Positions 4,775-26,249 of a stretch of 64,000 nt of DNA are shown in pieces. The notes under the pieces are model-generated. The model saw only the letters and a list, made by a program, of their open reading frames with translations, ran no database searches and was not told the origin of the DNA. Source of the stretch: an uncultured Colwellia sp. (GTDB lineage Bacteria; Pseudomonadota; Gammaproteobacteria; Enterobacterales; Alteromonadaceae); contig CAJXUN010000014.1 in NCBI GenBank assembly GCA_913061475.1, positions 23,169 through 87,168 of the forward strand, written 5' to 3'. How positions within the stretch are numbered: the stretch's first letter is position 1; each line of letters opens with the position of its first letter. Made by a program: the position numbers and the translations under genes.

Positions 4775-5713
4775 CTATTCAACCGGAGAAATAAAGCCCT
4801 CAGGTTTCAGCGTTAATACGGAGCATGATACTTCACTTAAAATTGACTCTGCAGTATTACCGATAAAATAACCAGGAATACCCGTGCGGCAAACAGTACC
4901 CATAACAATTAGGTCAATATCGTTTTCTTTAACATATTGTGGTATTTTTTCTTGCGCTGATCCTTCCAAAAGTTTAGTGATTGGTGGTTTTTGAATAAAT
5001 AATGTTTTTGCGATAATTTTATCCATATGTTTTTCTCGGTCTTGTTGTTTTTTCATCACAATTTCAAGGCGCTCAATTTCAGAGCTATAACCCCAACCCT
5101 TCAAGTAATCGTCACCAGGAAGTTGCCATGCGTGTATAATATGTAATTCAGCATTCTCTAGCTCTGCCAAATTAGCTGCACGATTCAGAATGCTCTCGTT
5201 AAGCTTATGTCCTGCCGCTGTTGGCGCGTAAACGTCGATAGCGGCTACTATACGCTTTATAGGTTTGTCATCATTTGCACCAATAGTTAATACCGGACAC
5301 GGACACTTCCTCATTAAATGCACTGTGGTACTGCCAAAAAATCTTTTTCTAGCATGGCTATTGGCCTTCGCTGCCAATATAACCAGATCGTAGTTTTCTT
5401 GCTGTACTTTTTTAATGACCTCGATGAAGGGTAAACCAATAGCATTAAATGCATCAACAGAAGGGAAGTCATCTTGAAACGACACAACAGACTTACTCAA
5501 TGAAGCTTGCTGTTCTTGAAATAGGTTAGCCATCAGCTCTTGTGGTGGTAAAAGAGTGATCCATGCTAATTGCTCTTTAGGAAGCTCTTCAGCAACGCTA
5601 AAAAATGTCACATGCGATTGTTGCTCTTTAGCTATTCTGACTGATTGAGCAACAACAGAAGCTTGAATTGCATTTGCGGGTGTTACGACTAATATTTTTT
5701 TGAAGTAAACCAT
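4775..5713 (-). CDS. Tandem universal stress protein, UspE-like
   Basis: Two Usp domains are fused in 312 residues (about 1-145 and 155-305), as in UspE. The first ends in CPCPVLTIG. The second carries DLIVMGTVCRTGIP followed by GNTAESIL, which is the UspE-type closing segment. Usp proteins are cytoplasmic and bind nucleotide or lipid-type ligands during stress. The start has a good AGGAAA ribosome-binding site. About 140 bp upstream lies a copy of the composite NhaR-site sequence found between nhaR and the nhaA remnant, so NhaR control is plausible. Usp proteins commonly neighbour SulP transporters, as here. Confidence 0.88.
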   Translation of the reverse strand: MVYFKKILVVTPANAIQASVVAQSVRIAKEQQSHVTFFSVAEELPKEQLAWITLLPPQELMANLFQEQQASLSKSVVSFQDDFPSVDAFNAIGLPFIEVIKKVQQENYDLVILAAKANSHARKRFFGSTTVHLMRKCPCPVLTIGANDDKPIKRIVAAIDVYAPTAAGHKLNESILNRAANLAELENAELHIIHAWQLPGDDYLKGWGYSSEIERLEIVMKKQQDREKHMDKIIAKTLFIQKPPITKLLEGSAQEKIPQYVKENDIDLIVMGTVCRTGIPGYFIGNTAESILSEVSCSVLTLKPEGFISPVE

Positions 5714-6202
5714 TATTATTTCCTATTAATTAAAAACGATTTGATGCAATTCCTACTGCCTCTACAAAGACAAAAGTGTGAATAAGAAATAGATATTTCA
5801 TCAAAAAAATTTGCATTTAAATCATGAAATGAAGTTATACCGAACCTAAATTGACAATAAAAGTCGTATATAGCTTTCTAATCGTCAGCTTTAAGTTGAT
5901 AAGGGGGCTTGTGAGGTGCAATAAATTAAGTTCTCACGATATTGGGCTTTATGTGCCGAACAACGCCAGGGAAATTTATTATTGAGTTCGTTAATGGAAT
6001 ATAAAACTGCAGATGGTTAAAGGTAAGCAATTATAAATTTGGGATTAGCGTTGTGATATGAAATTATACTTAAGGCCTACTTGCCTAAATTATTGGCTGA
6101 ACGCAGTCGGCTAACATAACAAAAAGTGCATGAAAGCCAACTTATAGAGATTTATTTGATTGTTTTCAAAGCTATTTCACAAGCTGTTTTTTCAAGGTAA
6201 GT
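5714..6202. other. 489-bp intergenic region with NhaR-like site
   Basis: It holds the leader and probable promoter of the uspE-like gene, including the composite site annotated separately. From about 5905 to 6202 I see no open frame with a ribosome-binding site and no repeat. Confidence 0.6.
5854..5902 (-). promoter_or_regulatory. Second copy of NhaR-type composite site, upstream of uspE-like gene
   Basis: On the plus strand ACAATAAAAGTCGTATATA (5854-5872) is followed by a half-palindrome AGCTTTAAGTTGATAA centred on 5892. The same 19-mer and palindrome occur in reverse orientation at 9702-9752. The distance from the end of the 19-mer to the palindrome centre is 20 nt in both copies. In each case the order is palindrome, 19-mer, then the downstream gene (uspE-like here, nhaA remnant there). 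Here the left arm is degraded (GTCAGCTT instead of ATCAACTT). Confidence 0.7.
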
Positions 6203-6646
6203 CTACAGTGTTTTTTTTCCTAGTAAGTAATAAGTAATGCCTAGGGCTAAGACAACAAAACCAACGGCAAATATATGCATAGGTATAACTTCATTGAAGT
6301 CGATAATGATAATTTTTCTTGCCATGGCCATTAAGGCTGTTGCAACAACGAGCTTTAAAGGAATTACATCTGTTCGTAAATACAAAACGATATTTTGAAA
6401 TATTTCTATTGCAATTAAAACGGCTAAAAACGCGGCAAATGTTTTGAAAATATCTGATAGCATTAACAGCATAAATGGCGGCTCTAAGAGCTGTCGATAG
6501 AATACATAAATAACATCAGCCACTCCCCAAAAGATAACTGCTACCATGAGCACCGCTAATATTCGTATGGCGATTTTTATAGCTTTATGTAAAAAAGAAA
6601 TCAAAGGGTCATTGTGTTGTGATGGTAGTTCATCATGTTGATTCAT
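6203..6646 (-). CDS. PsiE-family membrane protein
   Basis: The 147-residue protein has four hydrophobic segments (about 24-48, 63-85, 95-112, 120-142) and the family-like stretch IEIFQNIVLYLRTDVIPLKL followed by MARKIIIID. This fits the phosphate-starvation-inducible PsiE family of inner-membrane proteins, whose function is not established. A good AAGGA ribosome-binding site precedes the ATG. It lies between the uspE-like and bicA-like genes on the same strand, but gaps of 489 and 279 bp suggest separate promoters. Confidence 0.8.
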   Translation of the reverse strand: MNQHDELPSQHNDPLISFLHKAIKIAIRILAVLMVAVIFWGVADVIYVFYRQLLEPPFMLLMLSDIFKTFAAFLAVLIAIEIFQNIVLYLRTDVIPLKLVVATALMAMARKIIIIDFNEVIPMHIFAVGFVVLALGITYYLLGKKTL

Positions 6647-6925: not shown

Positions 6926-8575
6926 TTACTTTGCTAAAACGTAATCAAGCGCTGCTTGCAGGGCTTCTTCTCTTGATGCGTAATTTTTATCATTGGCTAA
7001 TGAAGCTAAAATACTGAACTTTTCTAATTGTTGTCGAGTTTTGGTATTTGGGCATAATAATAACACTTCACAATCGGCATCGAGTGCATCTTTTATCGCA
7101 TTTTCTAATGCAAGACCTACGGTAACATCGAGCATAGGAACATCAGTTAAATCTAAAATCATCACTTGATAATCACAAATACTAGTGTGCTGGCGTGAAA
7201 TTGCTTTTGAGACGCTAAAAATCATTGGGCCAGACAAGTAGAAAAATAAAACTTTGCCATTTGCTTGGTCTAATATGGCTCGTTCACTGTCAGTCAGAGG
7301 AACATCATTTTCATCGGCGTCACTAATGGCTTTAACTTTACGTGCCTGCTCGCGGCTAAGTTGCTCAATGATGATGATATTAGAAATAAACACCCCCAAA
7401 CCAACCGCAACAATTAAGTCAACAAAGACAGTAAGCAGCATAACGCCATACATGATGACCATACCTTGAACACTGACTTTGTGAGCGCGCTGTATAAAAC
7501 TCCAATCTAAAATGTTAAAGCCAACGTAGACCGCTATACCTGCTAATACTGCCATTGGAATGGGCTCTGTTAGCCCACCCGCAACCAATACGACTAGTGC
7601 AAGAACAAGTGCACGTACAATACCTGAAACCGGTGACCTTGCTCCGACTTGTATATTTGTCACGGTTCCCATGGTGGCACCAGCGCCCGGTAAAGCGCCA
7701 AAAAATCCAGAAATCATATTCGCAATACCCTGACCACGTAACTCTTTATCTGAGTCATGCTCTTTACGTGTTAGGGAATCGCCAATAACAGCGGTGAGTA
7801 AGGTGTCTATACAACCCAGTGTACCCAGTACTAATGCGTCAATGACCATAGTAGTAAACATTTCAGTGTTAAAATGGGGTATGACTAAAGAGGGCAGCCC
7901 TGCGGGAATCTCTCCGATACGACGTATGCTGTCAGTATCAAATAAAATGACGGATAATAATGTTATTGCGACTAATGCAACTAATTGCGCAGGAACATAT
8001 TTACGATATTGTTTCGGGAAATAAAATAGTACGGCTAAAGTGAGTAAACCTAAAAATAACTCACCAAGCTCTACATTTGCTAGGATACTTGGCAGTTCTG
8101 ATAATGTTCCCACAACGCCTCCCGGTGGCGCTGAGTGTCCCAATAACGGAGATAATTGTAATATAATTAGAATAACGCCAATACCAGACATAAAGCCTGA
8201 AATGACACTATATGGCATTAGCGTGATATATTTTCCTAGTTTGAGTGTACCTAACACTATTTGAAAGGCGCCTGCCATTATCACTACAGTAAATGACATT
8301 GCCATGCCCGTTTCGGGGTATTTTGCCATCATGCTGGTTAATATAGCCGTCATAATCACGGTCATTGGGCCGGTTGGTTCTGAGATCAGGGTGGTTGAGC
8401 CGCCAAATATTGCGGCAAAAAAGCCAACCATGATTGCGCCCCAAAGACCCGCTTCAGCACCAGCGCCAGATGCAACACCAAAAGCAAGCGCTAAGGGTAA
8501 TGAAATAATAGCGGTGGTAACACCGCCAAAGATATCACCTTTTAAATTAATATTTTCAAAACGATTTAAAAACAT
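6926..8575 (-). CDS. SulP-family anion transporter, BicA-like Na+/HCO3- symporter
   Basis: This 549-residue inner-membrane protein has the SulP core (10 or more hydrophobic segments, residues of about 10-405) and a C-terminal cytoplasmic STAS domain (about 435-545). It matches my memory of cyanobacterial BicA closely: KGDIFGGVTTAI, ALAFGVASGAGAEAGLWGA, LISEPTGPMTVIMTA, LGCIDTLLTAV and GAGATMGTV. BicA takes up bicarbonate with sodium, so that substrate is more likely than sulfate. The neighbouring nhaR and former nhaA genes also point to sodium physiology. The start has no strong ribosome-binding site. Substrate assignment is inference; the family call is secure. Confidence 0.85.
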   Translation of the reverse strand: MFLNRFENINLKGDIFGGVTTAIISLPLALAFGVASGAGAEAGLWGAIMVGFFAAIFGGSTTLISEPTGPMTVIMTAILTSMMAKYPETGMAMSFTVVIMAGAFQIVLGTLKLGKYITLMPYSVISGFMSGIGVILIILQLSPLLGHSAPPGGVVGTLSELPSILANVELGELFLGLLTLAVLFYFPKQYRKYVPAQLVALVAITLLSVILFDTDSIRRIGEIPAGLPSLVIPHFNTEMFTTMVIDALVLGTLGCIDTLLTAVIGDSLTRKEHDSDKELRGQGIANMISGFFGALPGAGATMGTVTNIQVGARSPVSGIVRALVLALVVLVAGGLTEPIPMAVLAGIAVYVGFNILDWSFIQRAHKVSVQGMVIMYGVMLLTVFVDLIVAVGLGVFISNIIIIEQLSREQARKVKAISDADENDVPLTDSERAILDQANGKVLFFYLSGPMIFSVSKAISRQHTSICDYQVMILDLTDVPMLDVTVGLALENAIKDALDADCEVLLLCPNTKTRQQLEKFSILASLANDKNYASREEALQAALDYVLAK

Positions 8576-8747: not shown

Positions 8748-9650
8748 TTATACCTGCTCAAAAAGCTTTTTACCTGCATCTAATAGGTGATGTACCGCAG
8801 GATGTTTTACTTTTCGTTCAGGTGAAATTAAATAAAAATGTTCAGTAATATCTGTCGTTCTGCCAATTAACTCAACACCAAACTGTTCAATGACATGTGT
8901 GTCTATTATGGTGGGAGCACAGAATACGCCATAACCCGCTTGACCAAAATATTTAGCTAACACTGAGTCGTCGAACTCGCCAATGATAATAGGTGAAATA
9001 CCCAGCTGATCGAACCATGAATTAACACTTAAATGTTGATTTGAACCTTCACCTGCCGTAAAAAAAGGTCTGTTATCTAAAGATTTAGGGAAATCGTCCT
9101 GCAGTTTTATCGCTAAGTCTTTATGGGCAAAAAAACTCAACCCACATTTACCTACTATGTGACTATAAGCTTTTAACGGCGACCCTATAGGCAGCGGTGT
9201 ATCACTTAGCACAGCGTCTAACTTATTTGTCGCTAGCTCGCCTAGTAAAATGTCTAAGCTGGTTTCTTTACAGACCAATTTAATTGAGTCATCCATAGTA
9301 TAAATTGCTTTTAGAAAGTTAAATGAAAACACCTTCGCGATGACATCAGTGACACCAATTGAAAAACGAAAGGCAAAATCCGTTGAATGATTTTTAAGAG
9401 AGTGCAGCAACTCATCTCCCAAGCTAAATATTTCTTGGGCATAACTTAGCGTTATATGCCCCATATCATTTAAGACTAAGCGCTTACCTTTTCTTTCAAA
9501 GAGACTGTAACCTAATTGATCCTCTAACAAGCTTAATTGAGCACTTAATGTTTGCGGTGTTATATGCATAACGTTTGATGCTTTAGCAATGCTGCCATGT
9601 GTCGCAATGGCGTGAAAGTACTGTAAATGATGGTAGTTAAGCTTTGCCAT
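8748..9650 (-). CDS. nhaR: NhaR, LysR-family transcriptional activator
   Basis: The 300-residue protein has an N-terminal winged helix-turn-helix (LNYHHLQYFHAIATHGSIAKA, TPQTLSAQLSLLE) and a two-lobed effector domain. It follows E. coli NhaR far past the HTH: VGVTD/VGVAD-type strand, LDAVLSDTPLP, KCGLSFFA, GEFDDSVLAKYFG, CAPTI and RTTDITEHFYLISPER..HPAV. NhaR activates the Na+/H+ antiporter gene nhaA in response to sodium. Here nhaA upstream in the divergent orientation is destroyed, so the regulator has lost its classical neighbour target but remains intact. TAGGA ribosome-binding site. Confidence 0.92.
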   Translation of the reverse strand: MAKLNYHHLQYFHAIATHGSIAKASNVMHITPQTLSAQLSLLEDQLGYSLFERKGKRLVLNDMGHITLSYAQEIFSLGDELLHSLKNHSTDFAFRFSIGVTDVIAKVFSFNFLKAIYTMDDSIKLVCKETSLDILLGELATNKLDAVLSDTPLPIGSPLKAYSHIVGKCGLSFFAHKDLAIKLQDDFPKSLDNRPFFTAGEGSNQHLSVNSWFDQLGISPIIIGEFDDSVLAKYFGQAGYGVFCAPTIIDTHVIEQFGVELIGRTTDITEHFYLISPERKVKHPAVHHLLDAGKKLFEQV

Positions 9651-9701
9651 AGTTATGTCCTAACGTAATTTTTTAACATTATTTTATCTCAGTAGAATAA
9701 T

Positions 9702-9752
9702 TATTATCAACTTTAAGTTGATAATATTGCAAGTATATACGACTTTTATTGT
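9702..9752 (+). promoter_or_regulatory. NhaR-type operator and composite site between nhaR and the nhaA remnant
   Basis: A 25-bp palindrome occupies 9702-9726: arms TATTATCAACTT and AAGTTGATAATA around a single T. It has the T-N11-A character of LysR-family sites. Downstream, 9734-9752 is the reverse complement of the 19-mer found at 5854-5872. A possible promoter for the old nhaA gene is TTGCAA (9727-9732), 17 bp, TGTTAT (9750-9755). The location in a regulator/target divergent gap is typical for autoregulation and activation. Confidence 0.75.
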
Positions 9753-9800
9753 TATTGTCGTTTGGCTATAAATAGGTTAACTTATTTAAAGAATACAGCT

Positions 9801-9987
9801 ATGGCAGAAAAAAAATTTGCAAGAATGGAAGCGATTTATTCAAACAGATGCTAGCTCAGGTATTTTTGAAGAGTAAGGACTTGCCTATCAAAAGCAAGTC
9901 TAATTTGGCGTATTAGTTGGCTCGTTAGTTTCAGCGATAGTAGGTGCCTATTTACTTCGAAAACCATCAAATAAATTAATCACTAAC
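9801..9987 (+). pseudogene. nhaA: Remnant of Na+/H+ antiporter gene nhaA (large internal deletion)
   Basis: The stub starts at an ATG giving MAEKKFARMEA. After a +1 shift it continues as FIQTDASSGIF, the N-terminal pattern of NhaA. It then jumps, in the same frame but through stops at 9874 and 9901, to FGVLVGSLVSAIVGAYLLRK, which is the C-terminal helix of NhaA. A normal nhaA is about 1.15-1.2 kb, so about 1 kb is missing. Position, divergent from nhaR across a shared operator, supports the identity. Confidence 0.85.
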
Positions 9988-10000
9988 CAAGGAAAAAACA

Positions 10001-10462
10001 ATGAAAAAATTATTGCGTCAAATGCTTAAGTTAACCGTTGTCGGTCTAATACTAACACCAGCAGTAGTACTGGCAGACTTTAAGTCAGACATCATTGCCT
10101 CTTGCACGGCATATCAGCAAGGTTATGACAAAAAAGAGATAAATGCCTGTAAGCTATATATTGATGGATTTATTGACTCATCTTTACTAACAGAAGATGC
10201 CGCAATACAAACCCAAGCAATGATAGCGAGCAAGCCACGAGAACAAAGTGCCTTCTTAATGCGTGCCTATAGAACCCGTGTTAATGACCCCGCTTTTTTA
10301 AGTAACCATAAAGAATATCAATTTTGTATTCCTCGTGAATACGACCGAAAAGTTGTTGCATCCGGTATTGCTAAGTCGATGAATATAAAACTATTAGCAG
10401 ATAAGCCACTAAAAGAAGTGCTGCTTGAAACCTTGATCGCAGACTACCCTTGTTCACAGTGA
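10001..10462 (+). CDS. Secreted small protein, Rap1a/Tai-like
   Basis: This 153-residue protein has a clear signal peptide (cleavage probably after VVLA at about residue 25). The mature part contains SCTAYQQGYD, CKLYIDGFIDS and YQFCIPREYD. Paired cysteines and a CxxY...G.xDG then FC.P pattern resemble Rap1a/Tai periplasmic immunity proteins. No type VI effector is nearby, so an immunity role is not supported by context. It begins 14 bp after the nhaA remnant, with a good AGGAA ribosome-binding site. Could simply be a Rap1a-fold protein of other function. Confidence 0.5.
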   Translation: MKKLLRQMLKLTVVGLILTPAVVLADFKSDIIASCTAYQQGYDKKEINACKLYIDGFIDSSLLTEDAAIQTQAMIASKPREQSAFLMRAYRTRVNDPAFLSNHKEYQFCIPREYDRKVVASGIAKSMNIKLLADKPLKEVLLETLIADYPCSQ

Positions 10463-10535: not shown

Positions 10536-10542
10536 GGTGTTT

Positions 10543-10908
10543 ATGGAATTAACTATTACTGATTTAAATACAGGTCTTTCTAATGAAAACTTATTGCGTA
10601 TCCAACAAAAAACACGTCGCATGTTCGATAAGCTTTGTCATAGAGTTAATAGAATTAAAGTTACAATAGATGATATTAATGGACCCAAGGGTGGTAAAGA
10701 TAAGCACTGCCGTGTTGTAATTCATGCTATAGGTATGCCTGACGTTGTTATTACTGATAATCAAACCTCAGTGATGTCGGCGGTAAATACATCGTTATCA
10801 AGAGCAAAAATAACACTACTTAGAAAAGTTAAGCGTAAGCAGAAAAACACGCCTGTTTGGGCAGAAAAGCCTCTGGATGCAGAACTACAAAAGTATATGG
10901 ATTTATAA
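10543..10908 (+). CDS. HPF/RaiA-like ribosome-associated protein
   Basis: The 121-residue product resembles the sigma-54 modulation/ribosome hibernation family. It has the beta-strand VNRIKVTIDDINGPKGGKDKHCRVVIH followed by a helix (SVMSAVNTSLSRAKITLLRKV). Related short proteins bind the 30S subunit and stall translation in stationary phase or stress. The ORF track begins at GTG 10537, but AAGAGG sits at 10532-10537, so ATG 10543 is better placed. Whether it is a true hibernation factor or a paralogue is not clear. Confidence 0.75.
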   Translation: MELTITDLNTGLSNENLLRIQQKTRRMFDKLCHRVNRIKVTIDDINGPKGGKDKHCRVVIHAIGMPDVVITDNQTSVMSAVNTSLSRAKITLLRKVKRKQKNTPVWAEKPLDAELQKYMDL

Positions 10909-10959: not shown

Positions 10960-10987
10960 TGTATACTATATTTTGGAGTGTTCAGTT

Positions 10988-11623
10988 ATGTTTGCTATCT
11001 ATACACCTAATGGAAGGACATTTTCGGGAACACTTGAAGGACTTCGACAAATAGAAAAGTCGAATAGGGTGAATGTAGCTAATAAACATCAATTTCTAGA
11101 TGACCTCCAAGAAGCCACCGGGAAAAAGTATCAGGTCACAACTACCTCGGTAAATGCTTATAAAAAAGCGATTAAAAAACAAGATGAAATAGCTCCTATT
11201 CATCATGCCTATCAAATAATGACATCTCCTGTGGAAGTGCTTCGAGGTGATAATGTTTTAGCAGTCGCTATCGATAAATTGAAAAACTTCTCCTACCAAG
11301 TATTCCCTGTTGTCGACAGCAGGGGGCAACTCATGGGTACACTATCAAGACAACATATTTATGAGTATATTTTAAGAAACAAAACTGTTTACCATGAAAA
11401 AAATAAACACAAAACTCTGGCTGAGCTATTTTTAAATGAAAAGTCAAAAGCATATTCAGCTGAGCCCGTTACCGACATTAGACGTATTGCCGCATTATTT
11501 ATCGAAAATAAACTTAACAGTATTTGTATTATTGAAAGTACCGGTAAAATCGTTGGAATTGTTTCAAGAACTGACATCGTGAATGCTACCATTAAAGAGC
11601 CGCCATTATCTTTATGGTGCTAA
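10988..11623 (+). CDS. Protein with two CBS domains
   Basis: I place the start at ATG 10988 because a GGAG motif lies about 9 nt before it; the ORF-track TTG start would swallow this site. The product has 211 residues. The N-terminal 75 residues are of unknown type. Two CBS modules follow (about 80-130, IMTSPVEVLRGDNVLAVAI...FPVVDSRGQLMGTLSRQHI, and about 150-205, ...SICIIESTGKIVGIVSRTDI). CBS pairs bind adenine nucleotides and sense energy state. No catalytic domain is attached, so it is probably a regulator of unknown partners. Confidence 0.8.
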   Translation: MFAIYTPNGRTFSGTLEGLRQIEKSNRVNVANKHQFLDDLQEATGKKYQVTTTSVNAYKKAIKKQDEIAPIHHAYQIMTSPVEVLRGDNVLAVAIDKLKNFSYQVFPVVDSRGQLMGTLSRQHIYEYILRNKTVYHEKNKHKTLAELFLNEKSKAYSAEPVTDIRRIAALFIENKLNSICIIESTGKIVGIVSRTDIVNATIKEPPLSLWC

Positions 11624-20784: not shown

Positions 20785-20857
20785 TTTTTATTTACAACTT
20801 GCTACTTAATACACCATGTTTGGCAAACTAATCTTCTCCAAGCAAATGTTGGCGAGT
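20785..20857. repeat. Direct repeat A: partial copy of the putA 3' end
   Basis: TTTTTATTTACAACTTGC, CTACTTAAT and AACTAATCTTCT are shared with 26179-26249 in the same order, with about 85% identity by eye over about 70 bp. In copy B the sequence includes the putA stop and last codons; here it follows an unrelated gene. The two copies bracket the photolyase cluster. Confidence 0.75.
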
Positions 20858-26153: not shown

Positions 26154-26183
26154 AAAAACGGGCATCTAATGATGCCCGTTTTT
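26154..26183. terminator. Bidirectional terminator between DUF2805 gene and putA
   Basis: A perfect 13-bp stem, AAAAACGGGCATC and GATGCCCGTTTTT with a TAAT loop, has A- and T-runs on both sides. It can end transcription from both convergent genes. Confidence 0.9.
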
Positions 26184-26249
26184 ATTTACAACTTGCTACT
26201 TAATGCACAATTTTTGGTGAACTAATCTTCTTCAACCAATGTCATGAGT
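26179..26249. repeat. Direct repeat B: putA 3' end and downstream sequence
   Basis: This is the parent-looking copy of the repeat at 20785-20857. It covers the right side of the terminator, the putA stop (26222-26224) and about eight C-terminal putA codons. Confidence 0.75.

Follow-up and report, generated by a model that had tools for sequence, protein, structure and literature searches.

A composite NhaR-type promoter element precedes a universal stress gene and a decayed nhaA gene in an uncultured Colwellia sp.

Why should the promoter of a universal stress gene carry the same composite element as the intergenic region beside nhaR, and would one regulator serve both? The reading we favor, with a probability of roughly 0.86 and on the strength of comparative sequence data, is that each site serves as an operator-promoter for the NhaR encoded at 8748-9650, which would govern usp from one and rap1a-hpf-cbs from the other. 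The window is the whole 64-kb stretch of DNA that was analysed; its relevant features are as follows.

4775-5713, minus strand: usp, a 312-aa tandem-domain universal stress protein, UspE-like (Pfam Usp, E 3.9e-36)
5834-5839, minus: -10 of the usp promoter, TATAAC, 17-nt spacer from TTTTAT
5855-5899, minus: site 1, the usp-promoter copy of the composite NhaR-type element, reading toward usp
5855-5867, minus: second half-site of site 1, ACGACTTTTATTG, at about -34, holding the -35 TTTTAT (5862-5857); near-invariant in 27 aligned sites
5885-5899, minus: primary dyad of site 1, TCAACTTAAAGCTGA, centre at about -65 (from the sequence; kept in usp orthologues)
6203-6646, minus: psiE-family membrane protein (Pfam PsiE, E 4e-34)
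6926-8575, minus: SulP transporter, BicA-like (831.8 bits to the BicA model, cut-off 880)
8748-9650, minus: nhaR, LysR-type regulator (NhaR equivalog NF008284, 221.9 bits, cut-off 219)
9681-9710, minus: putative nhaR promoter, TTGATA-18-TAAAAT (sigma-70 match of 10/12, bettered by no other in the region)
9707-9751, plus: site 2, the composite element that separates nhaR from the nhaA remnant (0 mismatches to the pattern)
9707-9721, plus: primary dyad of site 2, TCAACTTTAAGTTGA, centre at about -65 (from the sequence)
9739-9751, plus: second half-site of site 2, ACGACTTTTATTG, at about -34, holding the -35 TTTTAT (9744-9749; from sequence and alignment)
9767-9772, plus: -10 of the site 2 promoter, TATAAA, 17-nt spacer
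9801-9990, plus: nhaA remnant (by comparison with the nhaA of relatives)
10001-10462, plus: rap1a-domain protein, placed after nhaA in relatives (Pfam Rap1a, 27.8 bits, cut-off 27.7; synteny)
10537-10908, plus: ribosome-hibernation-like (S30AE/HPF) protein (weak Pfam match, E 0.025, below cut-off; synteny with nhaA/nhaR)
10973-11623, plus: CBS-domain protein (Pfam CBS, E 1.4e-16)

The composite element is present in two copies in the window, the 45-mers 5855-5899 (minus) and 9707-9751 (plus), with no third. The first-pass annotation had described an identical 19-mer accompanied by related palindromes, equally spaced and equally oriented at both places, and this description is accurate: ACAATAAAAGTCGTATATA occupies 5854-5872 and recurs in inverted form at 9734-9752, as the sole exact inverted 19-mer repeat within the 64 kb; the palindromes at 5885-5899 (TCAGCTTTAAGTTGA) and 9707-9721 (TCAACTTTAAGTTGA) have one mismatch between sites; in both copies 20 nt separate the palindrome centre from the closer end of the 19-mer; and both elements point the same way with respect to the gene that lies beyond the 19-mer, usp (minus) in one case, the nhaA remnant with rap1a (plus) in the other. 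Relative to nhaR itself the orientation is opposite, as nhaR reads away from site 2. What that annotation overlooked is that the nhaA gene downstream of site 2 is dead.

We scored the window with a matrix trained solely on the nhaR-adjacent sites of relatives: site 2 scores 59.8, site 1 44.6-45.1, and the third best place 8.0, the maximum in 60 simulated 64-kb sequences (first-order Markov) being 7.9. Since both sites lie far above the window background and the simulated maximum, chance is excluded as their origin. A genome-wide scan with the composite pattern, allowing up to 3 mismatches, returns site 2 (0), site 1 (1) and one further match with 2 mismatches that sits within a 601-aa coding frame; the only strong copies of the element are the two in the window (R1 model, site 1: 48.2 bits, E 3.4e-12 for the genome; site 2: 66 bits, E 9.4e-18). 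Beyond these matches, neither the pattern at up to 3 mismatches nor R1 above background yielded sites of a wider regulon in this genome. A repeat element or mobile DNA was considered and rejected, there being just two strong copies. A genome scan with the single dyad was uninformative (39 matches at up to 2 mismatches versus 30 in the reversed control).

The recognition dyad of LysR-type regulators is centred near -65. Each copy of the element has the dyad TCAACTTWAAGTTGA near that position and, 32 bp on, the half-site WCGACTTTTATTG, which overlaps a weak -35 and is followed by a well-spaced TATAAM -10; the consensus of the 27 aligned sites is TTATCAACTTWWARTTGAT, 16 nt, WCGACTTTTATTG, about 15 nt, TATAAM. 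The -65 and -34 centres are counted from a start deduced from the -10, near 5827 for site 1 and near 9779 for site 2. A spacing of 32 bp places dyad and half-site on one face of the helix, and the half-site itself resembles a degenerate dyad; the TTTTAT that it contains is a poor -35, at an ideal 17-nt spacing from the -10. Counted from the deduced start, this is the layout of a LysR-type operator-promoter, with a dyad near -65 and a second site near -35 on the same helical face (for the recognition/activation site scheme see PMC11739112). The T-N11-A core of LysR-type sites is lacking, the dyad being T-N13-A with C-N11-G inside, and the motif was for that reason assigned by linkage instead. 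As for the putative nhaR promoter, its -35 falls within the outer half of the dyad, which suggests autorepression; matches to the sigma-70 consensus in the region, this one included, are as frequent as expected by chance.

The LysR-type regulator passes the NhaR equivalog cut-off (219 bits) over its full length, by a small margin, as the sole protein of the genome to do so (the next best LysR scores 41 bits on that model), and shares 32% identity with E. coli NhaR across 291 aa. It is also linked to nhaA, as a remnant in the window and as an intact gene in most orthologous loci. The dN/dS of nhaR is about 0.05 against L136 and L007, the two relatives for which it is given (synonymous sites are saturated against three others), and it mostly reflects the time before nhaA was lost.

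The distribution of the element across relatives links it to nhaR. In 399 genomes, the window's own included, 36 matches of at least 27 bits were obtained: 28 upstream of nhaR, most of these facing a divergent nhaA operon, five at usp, one at nhaA, one at cbs and one unassigned. The counts by genome (G) are not independent of those by locus (L), because some appear to be the same records (e.g. G210 and L007). The cbs homologue of G070 carries its own copy (the L089 site, 57 bits). A 27.7-bit match in G156 was treated as chance, since its neighbours are unrelated genes and it is directed into a coding frame. Among the first 150 genomes, all 14 that encode an NhaR at least 69% identical have a strong site beside it, and at 13 loci with NhaR at 71-87% identity the element is directly upstream of nhaR. 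It stands between nhaR and an intact nhaA in L006, L008-L011, L018, L091-L094, L103 and others. Weaker forms precede NhaR-nhaA at 45-53% identity (L144, L146), and the element is absent at the more distant NhaR-like loci L019-L024, L096-L098 and L100-L102. No match was returned by R1 in the nhaA region of E. coli.

The motif is unlike the E. coli NhaR consensus, and one could imagine that another regulator binds these elements and that the nhaR neighbourhood is incidental. We regard this as highly improbable, since 28 of the 36 strong matches are immediately upstream of nhaR orthologues, whatever the divergent gene is (nhaA as a rule, psiE at L007, L012 and L013, rap1a at L017, hpf at L016 and L136), which makes nhaR the constant partner. 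The site also decays where nhaR is broken: in G132 (L099, G132:C1:4034000-4046000) nhaR is a pseudogene with stops, nhaA is missing, and the site is changed, with respect to its genus-mate G070, at otherwise nearly invariant bases. This may be regarded as a natural knock-out, although as a single case it is suggestive only. By linkage, then, the element belongs to NhaR, which would be the protein that binds it.

The first-pass annotation had proposed the uspE-like gene as an NhaR target, to be pursued by scanning the genome and its relatives with the motif, and had made the proposal depend on conservation of the site upstream of usp orthologues. The usp site is recovered by models whose training set held nhaR-adjacent sites and no usp sites, and conservation is found in five of five orthologues at 71% identity or more, own genome included (the others are in G386, G377, G077 and G210). 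These five, at 71-100% identity, are among seven usp matches with E 1e-60 or better in the 399 genomes; the remaining two, at 64% identity, are at other loci, behind another usp gene, and have no site, so that only the usp linked to nhaR shows the association. In the alignment of the five upstream regions, the element and the -10 form the best conserved block. Site conservation and linkage to nhaR thus support usp as a predicted NhaR target. The protein itself is UspE-like only, with 143.5 bits to the UspE equivalog NF008380, under the cut-off of 227.

The two sites are 70% alike over 87 nt, in addition to the identical 19-mer, as might be expected if the usp-side site were a relic, that is, a promoter recently copied from nhaA and no longer used. 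We give this explanation scarcely any weight. In several species the likeness of the usp promoters extends past the element (with GTATAACTTCAT following it), and they are conserved across genera, so the copy is old and has been kept. Divergence is seen in the bases that separate the half-sites but not in the half-sites themselves.

Site 2 faces the nhaA remnant, away from nhaR. The remnant keeps ~22 codons from the start of the gene, frameshifted, fused to ~45-50 codons from its end, and contains in-frame stops; relative to L137 the internal deletion amounts to 993 nt, with TTT at the joint. The frameshift is at a poly-A, and relatives have intact copies. A Pfam NhaA search of this genome (completeness 100%) found no intact NhaA and one more fragment, a 98-aa C-terminal piece on contig C33 (L056:1489-1782, G000). 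This piece adjoins MrpF-/MrpG-like frames, names that were read from the translations. With its nhaA dead and no intact NhaA found, NhaR in this strain probably governs usp and rap1a-hpf-cbs, the latter presumably by readthrough from the nhaA remnant into rap1a.

These losses bear on the nature of the signal. NhaR could bind both sites and sense pH, bicarbonate or an organic ligand instead of sodium, an alternative compatible with the operator assignment. A regulator without its sodium exporter would fit this idea, as no NhaA match was found in G377, G153 and G132 either, and a SulP/BicA-like gene is next door. We nonetheless judge it unlikely, if worth keeping in mind, because no target is commoner in the group than nhaA and an acidic residue is kept at the sensing position: the residue matching E134 of E. 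coli NhaR, a sodium-sensing position, is D or E in relatives with the site. Moreover, E. coli NhaR is the validated sodium-responsive regulator, and PMC9337991 presents it as the one sodium-selective protein regulator with experimental validation.

The following mechanism can be envisaged. A NhaR tetramer would hold the dyad at -65 with one dimer; in the presence of the signal, most likely sodium and/or alkaline pH, the second dimer would be placed onto the WCGACTTTTATTG half-site at the poor -35, and RNA polymerase would then be recruited to the good -10. At these promoters NhaR would activate rather than repress, and from site 2 it would probably repress itself. In relatives the element would serve nhaA-rap1a-hpf-cbs, which it faces, and separate copies would serve usp (and, in some species, psiE or cbs); with nhaA deleted in this strain, NhaR would control usp via site 1 and the surviving rap1a-hpf-cbs via site 2. 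We consider it rather probable that NhaR acts throughout the Colwellia group as a general regulator of the sodium/alkali stress response, with control over Usp, PsiE, CBS and a ribosome-hibernation-like factor, persisting where NhaA is lost.

These results can be compared with known systems. In E. coli, too, a LysR-type NhaR is encoded beside nhaA, whose promoter is NhaR-dependent, and has stress genes as further targets, namely osmC, pgaA and uvrY/csr (PMC6307784), and rmf and rsd (PMC10003395). Deletion of nhaR there raises the ribosome-hibernation factor RMF (PMC10003395), to which the HPF-like gene of the Colwellia cluster offers an interesting parallel. In E. coli, however, nhaR is downstream of nhaA, whereas here it is divergent; the targets here include usp, psiE and the CBS gene, with nhaA deleted in this strain; and the motif, TCAAC-N5-GTTGA plus WCGACTTTTATTG, looks different from that of E. 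coli, TCgaAAAAatCtA, which is itself not well characterized (PMC6307784). The predicted NhaR regulon of Shewanella (PMC3223726) is similar in being comparative-genomic, in a marine gammaproteobacterium, and, in the parts of that work consulted, its motif is also 3-4 mismatches from the known one and no usp link is mentioned. Divergent LysR-type promoters share the dyad near -65, the second site over the -35 and the divergent regulator gene, but not the second full copy before a stress gene 3.8 kb away, nor the T-N13-A dyad. In a literature search, NhaR and usp occurred together in seven papers, in none of them in the title or abstract. The novelty lies in a new target set and in a regulator that outlives its main client, not in a new kind of system. 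For the Colwellia group the analysis provides a sharp, conserved, two-part predicted NhaR motif, together with a target class that is both concrete and new, and an example from nature of a regulator and its switches that have outlived nhaA; a role of NhaR beyond sodium export becomes testable in culturable marine strains, among them Colwellia sp. 12G3 (L007), which carries both sites.

Some further observations concern the surroundings. An HPF/S30AE-like gene recurs beside NhaR-like regulators or nhaA, even at ~45% NhaR identity (L009, L016, L019, L021, L090, L094, L103, L136, L144, L145). The BicA-like SulP gene, BicA being a bicarbonate transporter model, stays near nhaR/usp in several relatives. 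Elsewhere in the window, an exact direct repeat of ~26 nt (TTTTTATTTACAACTTGCTACTTAAT) is present at 20785-20810 and 26179-26204.
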